A stretch of 64,000 nucleotides of DNA from positions 37,949,081-38,013,080 of the forward strand of contig OX485809.1 in assembly GCA_950295325.1 (NCBI GenBank), given 5' to 3'. Source of the DNA: Polytrichum commune. Lineage: Eukaryota; Streptophyta; Polytrichopsida; Polytrichales; Polytrichaceae. Each line of letters opens with the position of its first letter. Position 1 is the stretch's first letter. Below the pieces are notes generated by a model. That model saw nothing but the letters and a program-made list of their open reading frames with translations, was not told the DNA's origin and made no database searches. The position numbers and the translations under genes are program-made. Shown here piece by piece: positions 360 to 55,162 of the stretch.

Positions 360-1107
360 TTATTTATTGTGTCTTGCAATTCGTAGGCTACCCATATATT
401 GGGCATATCTAAATTTTAGAGTTTGGGTAATTTGTGTGTCGGGTATTTTATCATGTTTCCAAAAATGGTTGGAGAGTTTTTGATTGATTTCTTCATTCGA
501 GAGCCATTTGGCTACGTATGGGAATTTTTGTTTGGCTAGTGAAGTTTCTCGGTTTTCGTGGTCTTTCATTATGAATGTGTGGAGGTTGCGGATGGCTCCA
601 TCATGTGTAGCCGTGGGGGAGGTTGCTAGCCAATAGGGGGTAGCGTGCGCTATGTGTATGTGTGGCGTGTTTTCCGGTTTGTCTTTGAGTGTCCCTTCGT
701 TGGCTAGTGCGTCTGCCATTTCATTGCCCCTAATTCCCGTGTGCACGCTTACTTTGTGTATGTGTATCATGTGTGGGGTCCAATATATTTGGTGTACGAT
801 GGCTGCGATGAGTAATTTATCGGGGTGGTGGTGTTGAGATGTTGGGTGTTGGATGTTGGATGTGGTTGTTTATTAGGTAGATGTTGTTGAGGCTATCTGT
901 GAATATATGTGTGTCTATTTGGGTGGTTTGTATAGTTTTTATGGCTATAAGTATGGCGTTGAGATCGGCTCTTAGAATATTGGGATATCCCGGTAATCTT
1001 TCGGCTATTTGGGTATTGTTGTTGGGACTGTATACCCCTGAGCCCGCGATATTGCCGACTATTTGTCCCTCGGAATTTTTGGAAAGTGGTATGAAGGACC
1101 CGTCCAT
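360..1107 (-). pseudogene. LINE RNase H domain, frameshifted
   Basis: This minus-strand RNase H sits in two frames: 817-1107 holds the first half and 360-770 the second. The acidic active-site set can be followed. 'MDGSF' supplies the first Asp, 'FTDSLN' the third, and 'GIRGNEMADALANEG' the last Asp with the usual Gly-Asn-Glu context. The expected Glu in the second motif reads Asp here ('LRADLNAI'), so the active site is altered as well as split by a frameshift near 780-820. The domain belongs to the LINE that occupies the first 3.4 kb. RNase H of this type removes the RNA strand during target-primed reverse transcription. Confidence 0.75.
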
Positions 1108-1432
1108 ATATATGCATTGTTGTGGGTGGTATTTGAGGGGGTGTATGTGGTTGTATGCGGGGGGTAGTGGTAGTGTTATGTTGTTGTTGGGGGGGGTGGT
1201 GTGGTTTATGGGAGCGGTTTTCCATGTTTTGGAGAATTTAATGTGATAATTGTTGGGGGTGGGTTGAATGGGATGGATGTCTATGTGGGTGTTGGTAATT
1301 CTTTTTAGGACTCTATTTAGATTGTTTGGGAATTGTTGGTGTAGTGTTGGGGTTAGCTGGTTGTGTATGTATATGATGGATGTGAGTGATGGTTCCGTAT
1401 ATTGGTAGTATTGTGGCCATTATGGCGTGGGT

Positions 1433-3093
1433 TTATATTGTATGGTGTGGGGTGGTATGGTAGAGATGACGTGGATATCTGCTCATTTGGTGAGGGTTAA
1501 TTATGAGGATTGTGATTGTTTGTGTATCTTCTTTGGCGGCCATTTGGGCCCAATGAATGGCTTGTAAGGTTGTACTATGGTCTGTTGGGAATGCTAGACC
1601 CCTACCCTTCCATTTGGACGATTGAGCATGTCCTAGGGATCCGAATAACATGTCGCGGGTGTGTTGGGAGTGGTATTGTGTGAGTTGTGTGGGACACGTA
1701 AGAGGGGAGGAGTAGTATGAGTGTGTGATTTTGAAGGAATCTATAAGTAATTTGATGATTTCCGGGTGTATTGTATGGTGTTGATTTTTGGGTAGTATGT
1801 GTTTAGGTTTTTTCTTGGGGAGTATGGTAATGTATCTTTGTACGAGCCATAATATTTCTGTGTCGAAGTTTTGTACTAGGGGATGTAGGGAGTTGGTTAG
1901 GTGGGTTAGGTTGTTTTGAGAGAAGCGTGCCCATAGCCATTCTAGTCTTTCTGTGGTAATGATGGCGAGGAATTGTCCATTTTGGTCATATATGTGGGAT
2001 TCCGCGGCGCTTGTTTGTATGGTAGGTTTATTTGTAATGGTATCTTTGTCTGGGTTACATTCTTGTATGGATGTTTTGAGATTGGTGATCCTAAGCGGGG
2101 GGTGTATGTGTTTTTTATCCTTTGTTTGGGTGTAGTTGAGGTAGTTATCATATGTTTGGGTGGCTTTTTGTTTATGGGTGGTGGTGTGGTATCTTGTTAT
2201 TAGGAGGAGGTTGTGTTTTAAAAGGATGTTGTCCGGGTGTAAGAGGTCCTCCTCAAGGCGCCATTGTTGTGTGGTGCCATGCATGGTGAGCCATTGACAT
2301 AGATCTTTTCTCTTGAAGGCTTGTGCTCCCCATTTGTCACTTCGGTTGGTGGTTTTTGTATCAACTATTTCATGGATGGCCCGCCCTAGTGTGGAGTCCA
2401 CGTGATGGGGTTGGTGGTTAAGGTCTAGAGTGTTATTTGTGGGTGTTGTGTGTGGTGGTTGGGGATGATTTTCAAGGGGGTTGGGTGTTGTTGTGATCGG
2501 GAATATTATTGTGGCTTGTTGTAGGGCTTCCTTGATGGTTTTGGGTGCGAGTTTGTACATGTTTCGGTATTCCTCTTGTGTGAGTATGGCCTTGCTGTTC
2601 TTGTTTTGAATTTGTGCTAGGGTTGTAATGCCATGTGTGTAGAATTTGTCTAGGTATTTTGGGATTTTATTTTGGAGGCATCATCAAGGGTGGTGTATAT
2701 TGGGTTGGATAGCCATGCTTACTCTAATGGGGTTTTCCTAAGGGGGAATGCTCGATTGGCCGTGGTAACATGTATTTCGTATTCTTTTGTAAGTAGGAAG
2801 AGGGTTCGGGCTATGGGTGACCTTATACATGCTTGTTGTTTAAGTTTCGGGAGGTGGAGTGAACCTCCATATTTAGCTGCTATGTATTTAGTTAGGCCTT
2901 GATATATGTCGCCTAGTTGGCATGGGTCGTTGAGGGCTTGTAGTAATTGTTGGCCTATGCAGTGTATGTAGTCGGGTAAGAGGGAAGAGACTCCTATGCC
3001 AAAGTTTTTATTTGTGAGGTGCGTGAGAATGTTGGCTGAGCTTTTGGATATATTGCATATTTCTTTGGTTAGTTTGCCTATTATTTTATCCAA
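1433..3093 (-). pseudogene. LINE RT thumb and connecting region, broken
   Basis: Two open stretches (2719-3093 and 1433-2560) in the minus direction continue one LINE protein, with a frame break between them near 2600-2700. The first begins with 'LDKIIGKLTKEICNISKSS' and contains a 'GIGVSSLLPDYI' motif. This is typical of the region just after the reverse transcriptase palm and thumb in plant and fungal LINEs. The second contains 'STLGRAIHEIVD' and 'MLFGSLGHAQSSKWKGRGLA', and it links the RT to RNase H. The part that would hold the RT catalytic aspartates is absent. The composition is rich in T, N, H and I, reflecting the G/T-rich plus strand. Confidence 0.7.
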
Positions 3094-3395
3094 TTTCGTA
3101 ATGTTGGGTTTGGAGAATGGGACTGCATAATATGCATATGCTATACGGGGTTTTATAACTGTGTTTAGTATCTTGATTTTTTGTTTGAGACTGGCTGGGG
3201 ATAGGGATAGTAGTTTACTTTGTTATTTAGCTTTTTGGAGAGTGATTTCCCTTTGTAAGTTCCATTTGAGGGATGGTTTGAGTTGGATGCCTAGATAGGT
3301 GTACAATTCGTTTTGTGTGAGGGTGGGGAAGTTTTTGGTTTTGTATGTGACGTTTTGTGATTGGATGTATGCTTTGAATGTGTTACCAAACTAAA

Positions 3396-4580
3396 TGGTA
3401 GGGGTACTTCCTTCATTTTCAAAAGGCAACCTTCTTTGGGTAACATATGTGTATGCAAGGAGTTTGTTCCCTTAAAGTGGGTTCACGGGGGCTTGTTTGT
3501 CGTCAAGTTTCATTCTATTTAGGACTAAGTAGGTGAGGCACTTCACAGTTATTTCATGTATGTGTTTCATGAGTTTTTTTTATTGAACGTTCTTGTATGG
3601 CTCCTATGACGCCCACTGTAATGGTGGTGAGGGGGTTGACTTGGCACCTAATGGTTCTTAATGTTTGTTTAAGTGGATTATATTTGGTGTTTTTCCCCAT
3701 TTTGAGCAGCGGTGGGGAATATGTCGTGACAATATGTGAATTCTATGAATTAAATGGATGTTAAAAGAAGTTGGTTGTCCATGGGGGCGACTAGGACACA
3801 TAAGATATCTAATCTCAGTCTAGCTAGACAAGGTCATGTACAAAGGGGGGGTATTGCATGTACATTGTAGTACCTAGTTTGATATTATGACGTCTTGAGG
3901 TCGAGAATTTTGGTTTCTAGCATTGACAAGAGTACAGGATCTAGTGTGGTTGTTTGAATGGAGAGTGCAGACTATGTGGTGTACAATGTTGTTATGGCAG
4001 GCTATGTAGAATCCTTTGATGTGTGGATTTGAGCATGTAGAGAGGAGGTGGGGCCATGTGTCCATTGCATTGTTGGGGCACAATGTAGAGTTTGGGTCTG
4101 GGTGTGTGATTGGCCAAAAGATGTTCTTGCGGTGATTTCCCATATATTGGGCATAGCAGAAATTGAATGCTAGTGTGATTCCAGGGGTTTTCCAAAAGTG
4201 GTTAGAAAGTTTGTGGTTGATTTGTTTGTTGGATGACCAGTTGTCCATGTACGGGAATTTCAATTGGGCTAGTCTTAGTTCTTTTGTTGGTGGTCTTTGT
4301 TATTGTATGCTTGTAAGTTGCGGATGGCCGCCCATGTGTGCGCCAATTGGGACTTCCATTGAGCCAATATGGCGTGGTATGGGCTACATGTATGCGGGGT
4401 GTAGGGATTGGTTTGACTATGGTGGTTCCAACGTTCGCAAATTGGTCAGTGATTTCATTTCCTATTATGCCAATGTGTGCTCTAACTTCTTGGATTTTTA
4501 TTTTGTGTGTGGACCATATGATTTGATTAATTATGATTGATATGAGTAGTTTGTCTGGGTGGTTGTGTTGGGAAGTGTAG
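3396..4580 (-). mobile_element. LINE copy 2, RNase H and 3' part
   Basis: This minus-strand copy is related to copy 1. The open segment 3874-4263 aligns with the C-terminal part of the copy-1 RNase H region. Shared pieces are 'INHKLSNHFWK' and 'FCYAQYMGN' against 'INQKLSNHFWK' and 'FRYAQYMGS' in copy 1. The RNase H core continues with many stops to about 4580, where similarity ends abruptly. It resumes at about 8890, so one ancestral element has been split by an insertion. The boundary with copy 1 near 3395 suggests that copy 1 inserted next to, or into, this copy's 3' end. Confidence 0.7.
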
Positions 4581-4947
4581 TAAGTTTTTGCTCTCAGTTA
4601 AATAACCCCAAACCTAGGGTACAGACTCTCAAGGAAGGCCTAACTAGTGTCTATTACAGGCATTTGTCACATTATAGTTCATTAATCAAACAATAGGGTT
4701 GCTATCTTCACTCTAAATCATGACCGGTATGTCTTTTACTCTCCTTTTCTCTCTTGGTTTCCTCTCACTGTGTCTCATTCAGTGGGGTATGTGTGTCAGT
4801 CTCAGTAGTAGCCATCTCGTCATGAGATTGTGTAACAATAGTCTTTCGAGAACAATAGTCTTTGAGTATCACAATTGTCTTTGGTAACCATTGGCCAATG
4901 CATCTTCAATTCAAAACAATTCCTTCGTTATTTTGGTCAATGTTAAT

Positions 4948-40618: not shown

Positions 40619-41880
40619 ACACAATACATGTAGTAGTGTAGTTCCCGCTTGTTCGTTCGTTTGTTCATTCATTCCCTCATGCATCGATGGTTGTTGGAGG
40701 GTGGCCATGAAATGAAGAGGAGAGCAAGCAAGGGCAGTAATGAGGGGCGTCGCCTTTACTCCCACTAGCTGAGCCAGCCATTTATTAGCCTACCACTCTT
40801 GTAGGCGGGGCTGGCTTAATTAAGAGCCCGAAAGCGCCCGCAGCCACAAGTAAGTCATCAGGGCCGGACTCTAGTGTGACGATGATCAGTACTACACTAT
40901 GACCAAAAGTTAGTTGGCCAGATATGGCTGCGGCAGGTGGGCTAATCTTGCGAGATTTGCTGCCTCCACCAAGCTTCAGAGGCGATGCAGGGATCCTCCA
41001 TGTGCTGCTATCTAATGCACCTCGCTCATGCCATCTCTAACTTTTAGCAGCACCCCATCTTGCATACCATACTTAGAATGTGCGCACTGTTCTCGGTGCC
41101 AAACCACAGCTTTCGGGAACAAGTTAAGGCTCGCTGATTTTCGGTAGCGGATGGGGTTAGATGACTCATGATTCTAGGCTGGGTGCTTCTTGAGACTGTA
41201 GGTGGAATCTAGGTTGTCTGTGGATCTTCAGACTCATCAAGTTTGGACTAAACTTAGTGTTCCGGATTTCCATGACTATGTAGTGGGCTTTTCGGTGCGG
41301 TAGTACTGTAGTTTATCACAAGTGTTTGGGACACAGTAGCCCTGGATATCATCATCCGAAGGTGGTATCAGCAATTTGGAGCATTGAGAGATCATGCGGC
41401 AGACTCGCCTGATTAAAATTGAGGTAACTTACAGATCAGTCTGCAGGTTGATGAGTTGAAAGCCGAGTGTCGGTGTTTACCACTGATACGGGGAGGCTGG
41501 AATGAGAAAACATTGGCATTGGGCGGGAGGAGCAGCATCAGCAGCCTCCTCACCAAGTTTCGGAGCCATTGCAGGAATTGATCCCCGCTTTCGCCGCCCC
41601 GCTTTTCATTCTAACTGGATTTGATGCGGGGCTCGTCACTGTTTTCCAGTGGATGTGGATGGACTTTAAGATAAGTGTCGCCGAGGGGTGGGTTTCCAAC
41701 GGTGGGTTTGTTTTGATTGATGTTGGGCTGATTTGAGAGTGGGAGTGAGAGTGAGAGGGAGGCATGTGGTGGTGCAAGTGTTGTTGCAATGTGGGGTTAC
41801 GGGAGCTACCGGAGGTGAAGGAGTGATCAGGGACACACAACAGATTAAATTCTGGGTGAGGGATTGTTAGACCCGGAGCG
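40619..41880 (+). promoter_or_regulatory. Upstream region / 5' UTR of DUF688-type gene
   Basis: This 1.26 kb stretch between the Harbinger copy and the start codon has a more balanced base composition than the repeats around it. It should hold the promoter and 5' UTR. I could not pick a TATA box or start site with confidence. Confidence 0.4.
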
Positions 41881-44800
41881 ATGGGAGGATACAACAATGT
41901 GAGTGTGCAGGCGACAAATCCAGCTGCGCTGGAGAGCACAAGTAGCTCGAAAGGTTCGAATGCTCCTCTGCGACGAAACAGCTCAGGGAAAGTGTGGCGA
42001 AGCTCGAAGAAGCGTGTGTGTGTGGAAGGCTCCGATCTCATGGAATTCTTCTCCATCAATGTGCCTGCAATTGAGAATCCCTCGTTCATGGGGGCTGCTG
42101 CTGGGGACTCGGTGAAGAATGTGAAGTCTAGGTCATCATCACCGTTGCAGAGATCGGTGACAGCAGGGGTGCCCTCAAATCACTTCGGGGGGTTAGGTGG
42201 GACCAGCTTCCGGTCTGAGGACAGCGAGAGCTGCCTGGCCTTGTGGGAGGAGCCGAAGCAGGAAACAACTGTTGTGTACAGTGGCGAATCGGGATGGTTG
42301 AAGCTGGGATCGCAATCACCGTGGCGAGAGTCGGTGAGCAATGCGGTTCGCAAGTTCGAGAGCTTGTCGCAGGCTGTGGTGGGAAACAACAACAACAATA
42401 GTAATAATAATAATAACAAGGAGAAGCAGCTGCGGAGCTCATGGCGAACCGCCTCCTCCTCTTCGCCTCATCACCCTAACAACAGCAGCAGCAGCCCTCG
42501 TGCTTCTTTTCAAGACAGAGCTTCATTGAAGTTGGTTGGGGGGCCCCGATCACCCTGGCGAGACTTGATGACTTCGTCTTCTTCATCATCACCATCATCA
42601 TCATCTCCGAGGAGGTCCAGTGTCAATCTTGCGGAGGGTGCTGGGATTCCATCCACGTTGTCACGTCTCTCGCCCAGCTGTGAGCTCAACAATGCTAACA
42701 ATGATGCTACTGCCGCGGAAGCTCCGAAGCGAGCAGAGTTTCCGATTGCAAACGATGGGAGAATTAGGGAGAACAAGGATGAAGCGGCGGACGTGGCAAC
42801 AATTGCGAAAGCTGTGACTGTGATTCCATCGATGCAAAAGTTAGGAGGAGGTAGTTGTAGTGGAACGGACTGGACGGTTCCAGTGAGGATGCCAGCGATG
42901 GGGGCGGAAGCGGGTGAGGAAGCTTGTCAAAGTGAGGAGAATAAGAATTGCAATTTGGGGGGAGATGATGTTGTTGGTAGTAGTTCGAACAAGTGTTCGA
43001 AGGAGGTTAGGTCAGAGGATGAGACACCGCTGCGAGCTAGTGGGGCTATTCCTTTTGCTTGGGAAGACAAGCCTGGGACACCGAAGACGATTGCTGCGGC
43101 AGCCGAGCGAGCATTGTCGAGGAAATTCTCGAAGAACAGCGTGGAAGATTGTGTCGATCGTGGCGATTGTTCGGGGCCATTGAAAAGGTCGAGGTCCATG
43201 GACGAAGCTTTGTTCGGTGACTGCGCGAGCGAATTGTTGCAGGGCGGAGGAGGACAGCAGCAAGCCTACCCCTACCCCTTCTACGCAGGGAGCTTGACTC
43301 CGCAGCCGGTAAGCCACCGGTACTACCAGCAGATGAACAGCTTGAAAACTCGGTGCAGCTCCCGCTGTGGCTCGATTGATGGAGTTCGAGATGCAAGTGG
43401 GATAGATTTGGTGGCCTCGTCGGCTGCCAAGTTTCTGGAGGACGAGGGATGCCCATCCCCTGCTTTGGCACCCATCAAGACAGCAGGATCCGTGCCATTC
43501 CAGTGGGAAGAAGCTCCGGGTAAACCCTTGAAGGTTGATGACCAAACCCTGACCTCCGAATGCCAAAGCACACTCCAGCTTCCTCCTCGTCTTGCAGCAG
43601 CCTGCAATTCTCGCCACTCACCCTTGGTTGGGTTTTACAAGAGAGCTTCCCCTCAACACCAGGTCCAGAGCAAGGTTGTTCGCACTCCCAGGATGATGGT
43701 GAGGACCATGGAACCTGCCACGCTGATTAAGTCCAAATCTGTGGGTGAGGCCAGGAGGAGCCCTTTCCGCAAGGAATTGGAAGCCGCAAACCTTGTTAAT
43801 GTTGTGAAAAGATTGAACCTTCTTGCTGCAGCAGGGGACAGTACCAATTTGCCTTGCTCACCAACTAGCATCTTGCATGGCCCGGATGATTGTAGCCAGC
43901 CATCATCTTCTTCGAATCCTTCCTTGAGCTCGGAGTGCAATCTGCCCCTGATTGTAGCCACACCGAATTCCTTGTCTCGCTCCAGCTCTCACTCTAGCCT
44001 GTCGTTCGACTCGATGGAGAATGACTCTGACTTGATTAGCCCACCCTCCAGCCTCAGATCTCCGCTCCATGTGAACAAGACACGCAAGGATCATGGCAAC
44101 AATTACGAGCACGATGGCACACCCGAAAGCGTGAAAGCTTTACTCAAAATCTGCAAGAGTGGGAGCCGGTGGGTGAAAACCAAAAGGCAGCCGCCAAACA
44201 AGTTGGGCACAATCTACAGCCCCGAGGTTTGGTCACAATCTCCCAAACCAAGTGCAGCAACCAAAAAATCTCCTGGAGTAGTGTTGTTGAAGCAATCTTT
44301 GTTGCAACAGAAGAAGAAGTCGCCTTACGTGATGCCATCGGTTCTGTCTCCAAGCCGAGCTCCGAATCCAGACTTCTCAGCCCGCCTTGGTGGACGATTC
44401 TCTCCCCTCAAGGATCGATTGGTCTCTCGAAGCGATGCGAATGTGGAACCCCAATTCCAGTTTAGCTCTTGTGCTTCCCGAATCCTGCAGGACGACATGG
44501 GCGACCGATCTCCTGCGTACACCGCCACATTGGAGCTTCTGTCACCTGTCCACCGAACTTACACCAAGAGGAAAGTGCAAGCCAAGTCCAAGGTCCGAGC
44601 TGGCAGGCGATCCTCCAGAGGATTCCGACTGCGAACCCAATTCCTTGTGAGCATCTGTTGTTATTGCACTCCCTATTAGAACAGTTGCTTCCAAATCACT
44701 TCTAAGACTTCTAATGGCTTGATGATTTTTTCTTTCACAAAGAAGGGAAACATGCTTGGAATGAGGGCATTGAGAGGAATTCTTGATACAATTTGTGTTA

Positions 44801-47740: not shown

Positions 47741-50700
47741 CTAAACAGTGGCATCCACTCGCGGTTCATATGACAAAGTCATACAACGCCGAGAAAATCC
47801 TTGCAGGAATGGGCAACAAGGCAACCACCTCCACGTTCTGTAACTGATGCTGTACACAAGCACTCTTCGTCTTGCTATTGTGAAACATACAAGGTCTCCA
47901 TGCCCATAATATGTGAACAACCTTGTTCCTGCATCAAAATTTTATCAGATGTTTTGGGTAACATATAGCTTGAGAATTGCTGGAATCTCTTAGTTTCTTT
48001 CAAAGTTGGAAATTCGGTAGAGGGCTGTCTGGTTCGACTCAAAATATAATTACTTTTTGGGGAAAAAAAGTGTCAATGTGTTGTGTCCGCATTGGTCACC
48101 AATGTCCAATACAACGTGGGGATTAACTTTGGCACCTAAAGTGGACCAGACAGGACACACTATGGTAATCAATAAACTCCTACATGTAAAATAACCTTGG
48201 GCCATTTTGGAAGTCTAATGGATGGCTTTACTTGTACGTTACACATCGGTGTAAGAAACGGTGACATGTACACCAACATAGGAACTAAGACGGCTATCAA
48301 GGAAGGTATGCAGGTGTTATTTGGTTACTTTTTCTTAATCGGACACCTATTTTTGATTGGTGTGTGGTTAGGTGAGGATCAAAGAACAAACACCATAAAG
48401 ACACATATTTATAAGAGATTGGACTTCGTCTCCAAACTTTATCAATTACTTGACAATCAATAGTGCAGACAATTGGGAGGATCTATGAATTTACTTAAAG
48501 AATCCACAATCATGCACTTTCGATAAGCATAACTAAATCAGGGGAGGTCCGATTTTCAATCTAGTTTTTGGTGAGGAATTATAGATTTTGAGACTTACCT
48601 GACTGTAATTGCAATAAAGGCAATTTCATAATAAGCTTTATTACCTTATTAGGTGACATGAGAAGAAACATAGGAGGCATTATGAACTTGAAATGGTAGG
48701 CGAAACACACGACACAGAACACACCTTTACCCAACAACCACAAAGCAGTTGACGATTAAGAAAACAAGTCAAAATGTGTACCTGAAATACTGATCACCTC
48801 TTCAAGGAGGTGATTAGGCATAGAAGCCATCTTGAACCACTGACTGCCAACTGATTGCAGCGCCCAAATGGTAACTCTTGTCATCAGAAATTGCTCGCTT
48901 ACAACCTCCACCATGAGCAACAATCCATTGCACTCGCAAATTTGTGGCAACATAAGCTGTGTGTCCTCCATAGCCGGTCCTTTCACCTCCACCCATTGCT
49001 CTCCTTCCACCTCATAAGCTAGAATGGCATCGAAACCTGGACAACACAAAAATGTGTGATTTCAATACTTTGTTGTATAAAAAAATATGAATCGTGTTGA
49101 TGTGAACACTTTGTTATTTCACGTTTAGTGGCAGTTTCAGAGAAGAGAAAAAGAAACAATGTTAACCTGCACTGTAGAGGGAACCATTGCAAAAGACGGC
49201 ATTTGTCTGGAAGTGATGTTGCACGGGGTGACTTTTCACAAGCTTCCAGGACTTGGACACCGAACAATAAACTTCGGTGATGAGATTCTTCCCATATGAG
49301 TTGTTACTCCCTGCTACCACCACCTTGTAACTCCTTGCCTCCTCATCCACTACCATGCCTGCATAATTAGGAAAAGACATGTTTTAATGTTCCAAGAAGT
49401 ATAATAGGTATTAGAGTTATCCGTAAAGTCCCTAAAAGAGGGATGAAATCGTGGGTTTGATCCTTCAAGAAAATTTTCTATTAAGAGCTCGCTAGCTTGT
49501 CATGTCTCAAAGCCTGTTTTGAGAGTTGGGTGAAACTTTTGGGACCTCCTCTTTCCACTTCAAAAACTGAGTAAATTTTAGGATCTAAAATATGATATGC
49601 ACATGGGATCCATTGTCCTATATCCCAAATCAACCTATGCAAACTAGCTTTGCTCGACATGCTAGGAAGCCGGAGTTTGATAGCCCAACACCACTCTTTG
49701 TGTATGGTAATATAAGCAGTAAGAAAACTTGGATGAATTTGTGTAATTTTTATGAACTCAAAGTTTTGGGCTAAACCTATGGTTTCATCTGCTTTACTTT
49801 ACTTTACAGATAACTCTATTATGATTTACTATTTGAAAATATCTGCTTTCATTTCCTTATTGATGCAAAAGATTGAAACGAAATAGATGTAGGACTTGTA
49901 GTTTCAAACCTTCTATCCCCACAGGCATCGAATGGCAGGAACCAGTTTCGTGATTGATGTGCAATTATGAACTAGGCAATGGATGAATGGATGCAAGCAG
50001 CCAAATAACAGCCGCATACCATAGGTGATGGGTGGCTACTATGGCAGGGCGATGCATATCCATTACCAGACATAGTGATCAGGTCCTGGCAATGTCATTG
50101 ACTATGGGTGATAATGTGCCTCCTCGTATCCATTCAGGAATAGACATTCAGTAAAACTCTGGCCCTGACCACTACACGCCCACTACACTATTAGCCACTA
50201 TTGTGAGGCTTATGCACCATTGTGGGTGACCGAGTTCTGGATTTCAGGATTGGAAGCTCTACCCAACAAGGCAGATGATGTGAGTTTGCAGCATGTGATT
50301 TGAGCAATTAATAAGTGCACGACAAGTACTGCATCCCAGTGGACTCCAGTGGAATGCTCATTATGAACCAGGCATTAAACGAAAATGGCTCAGACAATCT
50401 AGAGGAATTAAACGAAATTAATGCGAGTTGCCACAATTCTTGTCAATGTAGACATGGACAAGGCGCATTTTGCGATGTTAAGGAATTGGTGCTCCACATG
50501 CTTGCTCACATTCACTGTTATCATTGTGATATAGTCCTAAAACTCACCAGCTGAACATACTTCCAGAGGAGGCATTATGAATGCCATCCAATTCACACAA
50601 CATGCTCAAAGTGGTATTAGCATTGACTGAGAAGAGAAGAGAAGAGAAGAGTTGTGATTCTTGTGACTGAGCATTTGTGGTCCATACGCTTGCTCACACA

Positions 50701-52515
50701 TGGTGAACATGCTTCCGACATATGCCAGTTTATGAACTCGGTAATGGATGCAGGAGCCTTGCCATGGGTTGTAGTAGACACTCAACCTACTGTGACATGG
50801 TAGATATTGGTTGCCTACTACAGTTGAGTTGATGGCAGGGTCAATATGTGTACATAACTGGACATAGTGGTCAAGTCATGCCAAGATCATCTCCTATACA
50901 TTTTGGAGCTTTGGAACAGCTAGGGCGCATGGACTTTGACGCAATTACCATTTCAAAGTTTCAAAACGATTGGTTGTCAATGGCAGCATGCTCAATAGAC
51001 GGTGGGGAATGGTTCGGAGCCTTTACTTCATATGCATGATAGGCACAATAGGTTAAATGGCATAGACCAATTTCAATATCTTCTATGCATTTTGGACCTT
51101 TGGAACAGAGAAGGTGCATGGGCGTTCACGCATTTGCCATTCCTAAGTTCCAAAGTGACTAGCCTTCAAGAACAACAACCTAGGACATTAATGCACATGG
51201 GTGCAATGAACCCAAGCTTTTCAAATACATATGTTCATAAGCCTCCTCGTATCCGACCAGGAATAGACACATCAGCAAAACCACTTAGCCTGACCACTAT
51301 GAACATTACATTCACACTTAATGCACAAAAGTGGCATGCACATCTACGACATTAGCATTCAAGATGAGGAAGAAGAGAGAAGAGATTGCCAACATGGTTA
51401 TGCGGGTGTTATTCAGTTACTTTTTTGAATCGGACACCTACATTTGATTGGTGCCTGGTTAGGTGAGGATCAAAGAACACACAAATGATTATTAAAAGAG
51501 ATTGGACTACATCTTCGAATTTTATGAACTACTCCACGCTCAACAGTGAACACAATTGGGAGGACCTATGTATTGTTCAAGAAATTAACAAACATGCACT
51601 TACGATGACCATAATTATAAAACAGGGGAGATCCAATTTTCAGTCCGATTTTTGTTGGTACTTCATTGTAGATTTGCTCATTCAGCACAAGTTTTGTTCT
51701 GTAAATCTAACAGGTAGAAGTTGGAGAACATGAAAAACGAACCGAATAACACCCACATACCATAAATGCACAAAAGTGGCATGCACATCTACGAAGTTAG
51801 CATGCGGAAGACGAGGAAGGAGAGAGAAGCGGGAAAAAGTGGCGATGTGTTTAATTTGCCCACCTACAATGGGGTATCTCCAGAGATGGCGCTTGGGAGG
51901 GAGCTCCACCCACGCTTTACTGAGAGGGTTACACACAAACATCTTGTCATCGCGGTGTCGCAAGCACAGCAATCCGGCAGCGGCCGCCACCACTCGCGCT
52001 TTGGAGCTCGGCAGGAACCCAAGCGGGAGCTTGCACCAGCTGTCGAGCTCGGGGTTGAACGCCACGCATTCACGGCCCTCACCACGAAACAGGTACCAAG
52101 GTTGTTGGCTGGACGAATGTCGGCGAGTACTAAGAATTGTGGCAAACAGGGTTGGGGACTGCAGAAGCTCGTTGAATTGCTTGGACACCGAGCGGAGACG
52201 CAGTAAGCTGGGTACCGGGAGGAGGGCAAGAATACGTTCTAGCAAGTGGATGGGCAGGTTGCTCCATAGCTTCGGATCCATGGTGGGAGAGTTGGATGAG
52301 CTCGCAGTGTAACGGTTATGATGATTATGGGTTAGGTGGTGGTGGAGGCGGCGGAGGGAGTGCTTCAAATTCGACTTCTCGCTCTCGAATTCATGGGGCG
52401 CTGGATCCGGTGGACGTTGATGATGGTCATCAATGTTGCAGCAACCGAGGGCTCGGTCCACTGCCGCTTTCCATGACAGGGTGATCGGCTTCAACGTCAC
52501 TCCGAGTTTCGCCAT
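47741..52515 (-). CDS. F-box/kelch-type protein, four exons, 428 aa
   Basis: Exons on the minus strand: 52515-51864, 49358-49167, 49036-48782 and 47928-47741. All introns are GT-AG and phase 1, and the spliced length is 1,287 nt including TAG. The F-box covers residues about 82-125 ('LWSNLPIHLLERILALLPVP' then 'SLLRLRSVSKQFNELL'). A kelch-like beta-propeller region follows, with 'WYLFRGEGRECVAFNPELD', 'KVVVAGSNN', 'FDAILAYEVEGEQW' and 'YGHGDLVCFTIARRRVLVY'. The ending 'EPRVDATV' fits the closing repeat of plant F-box/kelch proteins. Such proteins act as substrate receptors of SCF ubiquitin ligases through SKP1; the substrate cannot be inferred. A His-rich linker (residues 56-67) precedes the F-box. 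Intron 1 is 2.5 kb and repeat-filled. The gene faces the DUF688-type gene tail to tail. Confidence 0.9.
48300..48590 (+). repeat. Dispersed repeat P, copy 2 (F-box gene intron 3)
   Basis: It shares GTGAGGATCAAAGAACA, AGAGATTGGACT and CAGGGGAG-TCC-ATTTTCA-like blocks with 51400-51690. It lies within intron 3 (47929-48781) of the F-box gene. Confidence 0.6.
49413..49817 (+). mobile_element. 405-bp dispersed element, AGAGTTATC family, copy 2
   Basis: It starts AGAGTTATCCGTAAAGTCCC and ends CAGATAACTCT. It is flanked by ATT on both sides (49410-49412 and 49818-49820). It lies in intron 1 of the F-box gene, only about 50 bp from the exon 2 acceptor. It aligns along its length with 32793-33214. 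Confidence 0.68.
51314..51840. repeat. Direct repeat (~75 bp) flanking dispersed repeat P copy 3
   Basis: 51317-51390 and 51768-51840 share AATGCACAAAAGTGGCATGC, then CACATCTACGA and a purine-rich tail with GAGGAAG. The segment between contains repeat P (about 51400-51690). All of it lies in intron 1 of the F-box gene, ending about 20 bp from the exon 1 donor. Confidence 0.65.
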
Positions 52516-53650
52516 TGCAGATCAAAGCTAAATGATTAGCAACCCGAAAGTTTAAGAATACTTCGGTACTAAAGCTTCGGAACAAGAACTAGCCCAGGAA
52601 TTTGTACAAAAGGTGGGAACTTTATCATCTCTTTAGAAGAAACTGGAAATGTTGCAGCAACTGAGAGCTCGGTCCACTGCCACTTTCCATGACAGGATGA
52701 TCGGTTTCAACGTCACTCCAACTTTCGCCATTGCAGATCAAAGCTAAAAGATTGGACTTAATGCCGAAAAGAATATCAAAATACAAAGTAAGCTTGCGAC
52801 TTCAGTAGTACTAAAGCTCCGGAATGAGGACTAATTTAGCCTCGAGATTTGCAGAAGGCAGGGGATTTTGCATCTCTTTAGATGAAACTGGAAATGTTGC
52901 AGCAACCGAGAGCTCGGTCCACCGCCGCGGTTTTCAATGATCAGGTGATCGATTTGAATACCACTCTGGACAAGTGTGGCCATTCTTAAAAACAGCAGCA
53001 GATCAAACCAAGTGATTGGCATCCCCGAAAGACTAAGAAAAATTTACAAAATCTTGCTACTTCGGTAGCAAAGCTTCGGAACAAGAACTAGCCCGGACAT
53101 TTGTACAAAGGTGGAGACTGTTGCATCTCTTTAGAAGAAACTGGGAATGTTGCAGCAACCGAGGGCTTTGTCTAATGTTGCTTTCCACGACAGGGAGATT
53201 GGTTTCAACGTGACTCCAAGTTTCGCCATTCTCAGCAACAGTAGCAGATCGAAGCTAAATAATTGCCAACCCCGAAAGAATATAAACTTAATATTCTCGC
53301 CACTTCAGCTCTAAAGCTTCGAATTGCAGGACAAGAACTAGCCCGGGAGTTTGTACGAAGGTGGAGACTTTAGCATTTTTTTAAGGAAACTGGAATGTTG
53401 CAGCAACCGAGAGCTTGGTGCAAGGCCGCTTTCCACGACAGGGTGTTGGTTTCAACGACACTCCCAGTTTCACCATTCTTAGAAATAGCAGCAGAATGAT
53501 TGGCAACCCTAAAACAATAAGAATGATTTTATTTTATTCGGCACTTCAGTACTAAAGCTCCGGAACAAGAACTAGCCCAGACATTTGAACGAGGCGGGGA
53601 ATTTGCATCTCTCACAAGAAACGGGGTATGGCTACATTGCTACATCCCGA
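52436..53650 (-). repeat. Tandem array of the F-box gene's first-exon start
   Basis: A unit of about 216-253 bp is repeated upstream of the gene. TTGCAGCAAC-type anchors occur at 52436, 52652, 52897, 53150 and 53398, and a decayed sixth copy lies near 53630. Each unit contains the first ~28 codons of the F-box protein plus its 5' flank. The copy starting at ATG 52731 reads 'MAKVGVTLKPIILSWKVAVD', and the one at 53229 reads 'MAKLGVTLKPISLSWKATLD'. Both are open for about 30 codons. The copies at about 52985 and 53475 are frame-broken. The gene's own exon 1 is the first unit. Confidence 0.85.
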
Positions 53651-55162
53651 GACTCGCTCGACGTTCGAACACGACAACTTAGAAAACTACCCCCTTTTTC
53701 TCATATCCGCAAAATCATTGTTTCATATCCGTGACATCACCGAGGTTCTTATGTGAGAGTGGACCAACAATGGGGAGAAAAGACGGCCAGCACCGAAACT
53801 GAGTGAATGATGATATCCTTGGCCATAGTTCACAGCAAGGATTTTATCCAAGTCTAGTAGCTGCAAAACATCACCCTCCCTCCTCTCTCCTCCCGTCTCC
53901 CTTCTCCTGTCTGTGCTCTATCTCGACCGCACAGCCCCCCAACCCCCAACCTCCACCAAGATCATCAACAAGAATTGTGGTCAACAAGCAAGCGACCACA
54001 CCAACTTCACATCCGTGATTACGACTCACCACACATACTTTGTACTCTTGGCATGCACGCAACCCAACTTACTCTCTCAACCCTAGCACAATGGAATAGA
54101 CCTCCCACCCCCCTCACACACACACACACACACAACACACACACATCACATAACCTTGTCACGTAACCCTGGTGATGCGAAACCTCACCAGCAGCTACTT
54201 AGCCTTTATGACTCAGCTAACCGATGCCACCCATCCATCTGTCCAGACAACATCAAAACTGTGAGCACTTTGACGTAACAGCAAGCCAATGATGTCAATG
54301 ATGGGCAAACAACCATCTTGAATATAACGTAGTAGTGACAAAACTGAAAGGCAGGCAGGCAGGCCAGGCAATATAGATAGATCTATGATATCATCTCATA
54401 ATTCTTTACTTCTGAACATCACCCACACTCTACTTATAAGTAGTAGGTAGCTAGGTACAGCACTTGAGCTTCTTAGATCTGCTTCTTCTAGTTCTTGTTC
54501 AAGTCTGTCTACAAATGGGGAGATGGACCACTAGTTACACGACATTGAGTTTGAGAATTAATTGGTTGAAGTTCAGAATTTTAGACAAATCGCTGATCAT
54601 TTTAGAGGAATCTATAGAATAAACTTTATATTAAAAATGAAAGAAAAACCAAAAGATTTCAATATGTAACATTGTAATTGGTTGTACTTGGAAACACTTG
54701 GATCTCGACTGGTTTTGTCTGAAATCTCCTTGGTCACAACTTAAGTTGCTGAGTTGTAGCTCTAGCTAGCTTATGTCTTATTCTTGTCAAAGACAGAGTT
54801 GTGCCAGAGAGAGTAGTCTAAGTTATGTGTCTGTGTTCCACTGGGGCTCTGTCTGTTTGTAAGTACTGGAGTCCTGCCTGCACACAGGACAAAGAAGAAA
54901 ATAATAATGAGAGAAAGAAGGGTCCGGGAGTCAGGACTTAAGTTAGGAAACCAGGGAGCAACCTGCAGCACCACTTTCATGGATAATGGCAGGGCAAGCC
55001 CTGGCTTGCCTTCCATGTCAAGTATTCTTTTTGACTCAACATTCGTTCGCATTAAATGAGGAGAACCAGTTGCTAGTTGCAGATGAACCGGTTGAGTTTG
55101 AGAAAATAACTGGTTGACATTCAAGACTTCAGGAAAATTACCCATCATCGAAGATGCATGAT
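53651..55162. other. Non-genic stretch, probable distal promoter side of the F-box gene
   Basis: It holds a (CA)n tract at 54116-54145 and no gene. The string GATCATTTTAGAGGAATCTA near 54595 recurs at 10980, marking a dispersed repeat. Confidence 0.4.

Follow-up and report, generated by a model that had tools for sequence, protein, structure and literature searches.

Partial tandem duplication of the 5' end of a gene is a kind of rearrangement that is already known. The closest published case found in a limited literature search is PEP1 of Arabis alpina, at which exon 1 is duplicated in tandem together with parts of the promoter and of intron 1; the two copies of exon 1 lie 6.3 kb apart, have separate mapped starts and are both spliced to one exon 2 (PMC3527215). 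The locus described here resembles PEP1 in that the 5' end of a plant gene, comprising first-exon coding sequence and promoter sequence (presumed here), is partially duplicated in tandem upstream of the full gene. It differs in that the PEP1 copies carry a complete exon 1, whereas the present locus has five units of ~250 bp, with copies truncated inside predicted exon 1. In a limited search on first-exon arrays and repeated upstream ORFs (uORFs), no array of multiple short units that break off within exon 1 was found among the matches listed (titles and starts of abstracts).

Two other plant systems invite comparison. The repeat unit of the apple MYB10 R6 allele is short and noncoding, about 23 bp, and the maize b1 repeats are about 0.85 kb long, nearly identical and situated about 100 kb from the gene. 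The R6 promoter minisatellite is similar to the present locus as a promoter tandem array beside a plant gene (PMC11321683), and the b1 paramutation repeats as direct repeats located upstream of a plant gene (PMC3798267). The present unit differs from that of MYB10 R6 in that it includes a start codon and coding sequence and its copies are much diverged; unlike the b1 repeats, those described here are diverged and adjoin the start codon.

The window, that is, the whole 64-kb stretch of Polytrichum commune DNA that was analysed, contains a predicted four-exon F-box/beta-propeller gene on the minus strand with a product of 428 aa. Exon junctions are GT/AG sites picked by eye and then verified through translation, giving the following gene model.

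51864-52515, minus strand: exon 1, 652 nt; F-box at residues 84-124 (Pfam PF00646, 1.1e-9)
49167-49358, minus strand: exon 2, part of the beta-propeller; inside the PF03478 match (residues 165-359)
48782-49036, minus strand: exon 3, predicted gene model, checked by translation
47741-47928, minus strand: exon 4, stop codon included, predicted gene model, checked by translation

Three Pfam matches of the predicted product exceed their cut-offs (given in brackets): PF00646 at 38.2 bits (20.5), PF03478 at 45.1 (27.4) and PF24750 at 36.9 (25). The F-box is followed by the beta-propeller, the domain order characteristic of an F-box/beta-propeller gene. PDB matches include a kelch protein, E 0.0014, and, at 0.42, an F-box chain. 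Arabidopsis At5g43190 may be a relative. A scan of viral contigs for relatives of the F-box protein yielded one stretch that fitted a pattern and none that was confirmed. The ATG at 52515 is the first downstream of a stop in the frame that reaches the F-box domain. Intron 1 contains direct and inverted repeats (51320-51358/51765-51803 and 51399-51425/51733-51759), and sequence judged by eye to resemble them is present in intron 3 (about 48280-48580). This suggests that a small mobile element has been inserted in the introns.

The 5' end of this gene is preceded by four additional head-to-tail copies of promoter-side flank and first-exon coding sequence, all on the minus strand and in the orientation of the gene. 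Together with the live copy they form an array of five units at 52432-53627, each made up of a 5' flank of 131-163 bp and a core matching the first 28 codons.

52432-52515, minus strand: U0 core, codons 1-28 (MAKLGVTLKPITLSWKAAVDRALGCCNI) of the predicted live gene; reference for the array
52516-52646, minus strand: U0 flank, 131 bp, with homologous flanks in each of U1-U4
52648-52889, minus strand: U1, ATG at 52731; open 32-codon frame 52731-52633; core with 7/84 differences from U0, free of indels
52893-53144, minus strand: U2, ATG at 52983; core frame broken through indels and substitutions
53146-53392, minus strand: U3, ATG at 53229; open 32-codon frame 53229-53131; core with 12/84 differences from U0, free of indels
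53394-53627, minus strand: U4, outermost unit, ATG at 53476; a 1-base deletion shifts the frame; array homology stops at about 53627

The U0 flank is presumably the 5' leader and proximal promoter of the live gene, and the flanks of the array may likewise act as promoter. The preliminary description had reported that the 5' flank and the first ~28 codons were multiplied in tandem beside a live gene, and self-comparison bears this out for a gene whose predicted frame is intact: a blastn search of the entire window with 52430-53700 as query yields matches off the diagonal that cover ~1 kb at 71% identity (E 5.5e-136), far more than chance would give. The same repeat families are found by a separate repeat search of the window. 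The five to six upstream units of the preliminary description come down to five in all, the live one included, which stand in register with ATG-to-ATG spacings of 216, 252, 246 and 247 bp; the similarity of a candidate sixth unit at 53628-53700 is insignificant, its score of 21 being equalled in 196/1000 shuffles. 'First exon' also overstates what was multiplied, since the first 28 codons are copied and the rest of the 652-nt exon 1 is absent. No array copies occur elsewhere in the 64-kb window at E 0.01 (blastn). None of the 24 rows from Tandem Repeats Finder at its default score covers the array, which is unsurprising because the units are so diverged.

Between units, which also differ by indels, the coding core is 8-30% diverged and the best-aligned flank segment (A) 11-37%. 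Pair by pair, the cores of U0, U1, U3 and U4 are 0.08-0.18 diverged from one another and 0.18-0.30 from that of U2; the corresponding flank values are 0.11-0.37 for segment A, 0.20-0.38 for segment C and 0.33-0.67 for the AT-rich segment B, in which few bases align. Indels are absent from the core between U0, U1 and U3, and the flank alignment contains 14 gap blocks. GC content is 0.48-0.57 in the core versus 0.38-0.41 in the flanks, and GC3 of codons 1-28 is 0.71. The ATG is retained but the frame is shifted in two of the four copies (U2 and U4). In the other two, U1 and U3, an open frame of 32 codons ends directly past the CCN motif, in agreement with the earlier statement that at least two copies keep an ATG and an open frame of about 30 codons. 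In addition, an antisense frame (plus strand, 52433-53499) is open for 31-55 codons from a common ATG in all five units, that of U2 beginning four codons earlier than in the others. When the frames are compared by reading, third codon positions coincide, and the antisense frames are therefore probably a shadow of the sense frame.

Folding of the five units on both strands was also considered. The 10 folds have z-scores of -2.06 to 0.61 and share no common fold by eye, and miRNA-type or conserved hairpins were accordingly rejected. The most stable fold is that of U4 (z -1.83 and -2.06; 6 and 7/200 shuffles as stable). The repeat search gives two weak inverted pairs between units, of 24-25 nt and 76-79% complementarity. 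Rfam at gathering scores returned no match, and no tRNA was found.

Elsewhere in the window, a retroelement-like stretch lies on the minus strand at 360-3222. It contains RNase H fragments at 360-866 (Pfam 1.4e-4) and 817-1416 (0.002), both under the curated cut-off, preceded by an ORF at 1433-2680 that matches PCIF1_WW (PF12237, 5.8e-9, over cut-off) and by an ORF at 2719-3222 that resembles a reverse transcriptase end by eye and has no confirming Pfam match. A cap-methyltransferase-type domain within a retroelement would be unusual; no report of a retroelement with a PCIF1-type domain was found among the literature matches listed (titles and starts of abstracts). A second RNase H-like fragment, also on the minus strand (4202-4597; 8.2e-4, under cut-off), may be a degenerate copy of a related element, and the neighbouring ORF at 3874-4299 has no Pfam match. 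On the plus strand, a 939-codon open frame at 41860-44679 with a DUF688 match (7.1e-8) is probably a plant gene.

U0 has the look of a mosaic. In segment A it is closer to U2 (10/87 differences) than to U1 (20/84), and in the core it is closer to U1 (7/84) than to U2 (15/84); U0 and U1 also have in common a 13-nt gap just 5' of the ATG. Informative sites at which U0 matches U1 and not U2 make up 6/23 on the leader side and 14/18 on the core side. A maximum chi-square test of the U0/U1/U2 triplet gives a permutation p of 0.0088, or about 0.04 corrected for five triplets; U3 with U4 and U0 gives 0.023, and the remaining three triplets 0.09-0.22. This suggests unequal exchange. Judged on these alignments, exchange between units is likely to have happened, the mosaic pattern of U0 being supported but short of certain.

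Selection on the copies was assessed, at this one locus, from core and flank divergence and from the kinds of change in the core. The core was compared with flank segments A and C, and segment B was omitted because of its poor alignment. In all six pairs among U0, U1, U3 and U4, divergence is lower in the core than in the flank, with Fisher p values of 0.0076-0.027 in five of them and 0.08 for U0-U3; for the disjoint pairs U0-U1 and U3-U4 the values are 0.0076 and 0.027. In the two of four U2 pairs that were tested, core divergence is not significantly below that of the flank (p 0.85 and 0.35). There are 22 core events not confined to U2, the 13 U2-only events (5 synonymous, 8 not) being omitted. 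Of these, 11 are synonymous versus about 27% expected (p 0.017) under a mutation model with its transition ratio taken from the flanks, from which a CpG effect was left out because CpG occurs at just 4 positions of the flank consensus, too few for an estimate. Nine mutation models differing in transition and CpG bias give p 0.01-0.13, so that the significance of this signal depends on the model chosen. Changes at third positions (10/22) show no significant excess (p 0.16-0.31). Private core changes are nonsynonymous in 4/4 cases in U1 and 3/5 in U4 and synonymous in 4/6 in U3; the single one in U0 is synonymous.

The low core divergence and the synonymous lean hint at past coding constraint on the copies or at conversion from the live copy. 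In our reading, constraint may have acted for part of the time, in the simplest case for as long as a particular core was the live one, or conversion may have occurred. Mutation rates of core and flank may also differ, because their GC content differs. Furthermore, the probability that a copy bearing 7-14 substitutions still has its ATG and has acquired no stop is 0.55-0.31 under a neutral model that ignores indels, so that two open copies out of four need no selection. The synonymous excess would be compatible with some coding history of the copies, and the private changes of U3 fit a reading confined to past constraint least comfortably. The lean falls short of proof for present-day translation of U1 and U3.

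The array is probably the product of an old tandem duplication of promoter/leader and partial first exon, in which the gene-proximal U0 alone is live. A head-to-tail duplication would have copied the proximal promoter/leader together with the first 28 codons, and the array may then have grown to five units through unequal crossing-over or conversion. Protein would be made from U0 only, as the unit joined to the remainder of exon 1. Transcription most likely starts in the 131-bp flank of U0 or in the adjacent neighbour, and U1-U4 would be untranslated. The four upstream units appear to be mostly in decay, and any function they have would most likely be as promoter-proximal DNA and as partners in unequal exchange. 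The array, its limits, the divergence of its units, the broken frames and the truncation within predicted exon 1 are read directly from the DNA. Several of these features favour duplication debris: all copies end at codon 28, partway through a 652-nt exon, which is the pattern to expect from a random duplication breakpoint, the five units are in register, two of the four copies are frameshifted, and the private changes of U1 are all nonsynonymous. The array is thus most likely ordinary duplication debris in the control region of a gene, although two of the copies, should transcription ever reach them, may have kept the capacity to encode a short peptide.

Other origins and roles fit these data less well. 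An assembly artefact is exceedingly unlikely: nothing was found in its favour, and false duplication yields near-identical copies, whereas the present units show a core divergence of 8-30%, a divergence of 11-37% in flank segment A, and indels. It is unlikely, too, that the repeat came first, the gene having either gained an N-terminal extension from the last unit to an ancestral start at Met79 (MDPKLWSNLP), or using Met79 still, with the array noncoding. The F-box match does begin at residue 84, five residues past Met79, residues 1-83 have no Pfam match at E 0.001, and the sequence context of Met79 is CCACCATGG. Against this, the higher GC content of the core than of the flanks and the GC3 of 0.71 weakly favour a coding origin, and the lean towards synonymous substitutions is, again weakly, what a coding origin would give. 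Copies of the repeat are also absent from the rest of the 64-kb window, which says little about the genome. The preliminary description had further suggested that the copies might be alternative first exons. All four end within exon 1 and the donor is missing, so they are not ready-made for this role; a complete exon 1 with its splice donor is present in none of the four (predicted exon 1, 652 nt). Starts at several units and splicing to the gene body, in the manner of PEP1, would depend on cryptic sites, both a donor and, within U0 or exon 1, an acceptor. By a crude donor consensus, 2/75 GT sites in the array score 6/9, equal to the three predicted donors of the gene and compatible with cryptic splicing. 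Flank and ATG are present in every unit, and partial exon 1 duplication with two transcripts is already known from PEP1 (PMC3527215). Even so, such use of the array is decidedly improbable.

If translation is considered, a transcript starting at 53690 or above would carry 15 ATGs 5' of the main one, 13 of them within 52516-53627. A purine occupies -3 in 13 of the 15, with a G at +4 in addition in five. The U0 leader by itself contains one uORF, of 19 codons (52628-52569). Under ribosome scanning, many upstream ATGs should depress the main frame, and a start inside the 131-bp U0 flank is therefore simpler. This weighs against a long leader that includes the copies, in which the open frames 52731-52633 and 53229-53131 would be peptide uORFs regulating translation of the F-box protein. 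Both 32-codon frames are open, with a purine at -3 and G at +4 of their ATGs, so that an upstream frame with a start codon is open in two of the four copies, as sought in a conserved-peptide uORF. Core divergence below that of the flank in the six non-U2 pairs, synonymous changes in 11 of 22 events and synonymous private changes in 4/6 cases in U3 all point in the same direction. However, half of the copies are frameshifted, the private changes of U1 are 4/4 nonsynonymous, and the antisense frame, open in 5/5 units, indicates that open frames are easily obtained in the core. Regulation by peptide uORFs is accordingly improbable. It is quite improbable that the upstream units constitute a reservoir of diverged N-terminal cassettes that swaps leader and N-terminus variants into the working gene, with the open copies translated in some individuals; exchange would then already have replaced part of the live start, whose leader and core would come from different units.

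As probable duplication debris beside a predicted live gene, the array provides a clear example at a gene start, with units and divergence sufficient to trace unequal exchange and decay next to the gene. If the number of units, or the sequence joined to exon 1, varies between individuals, the locus would offer a natural experiment in how expression is affected by repetition of leaders and start codons.
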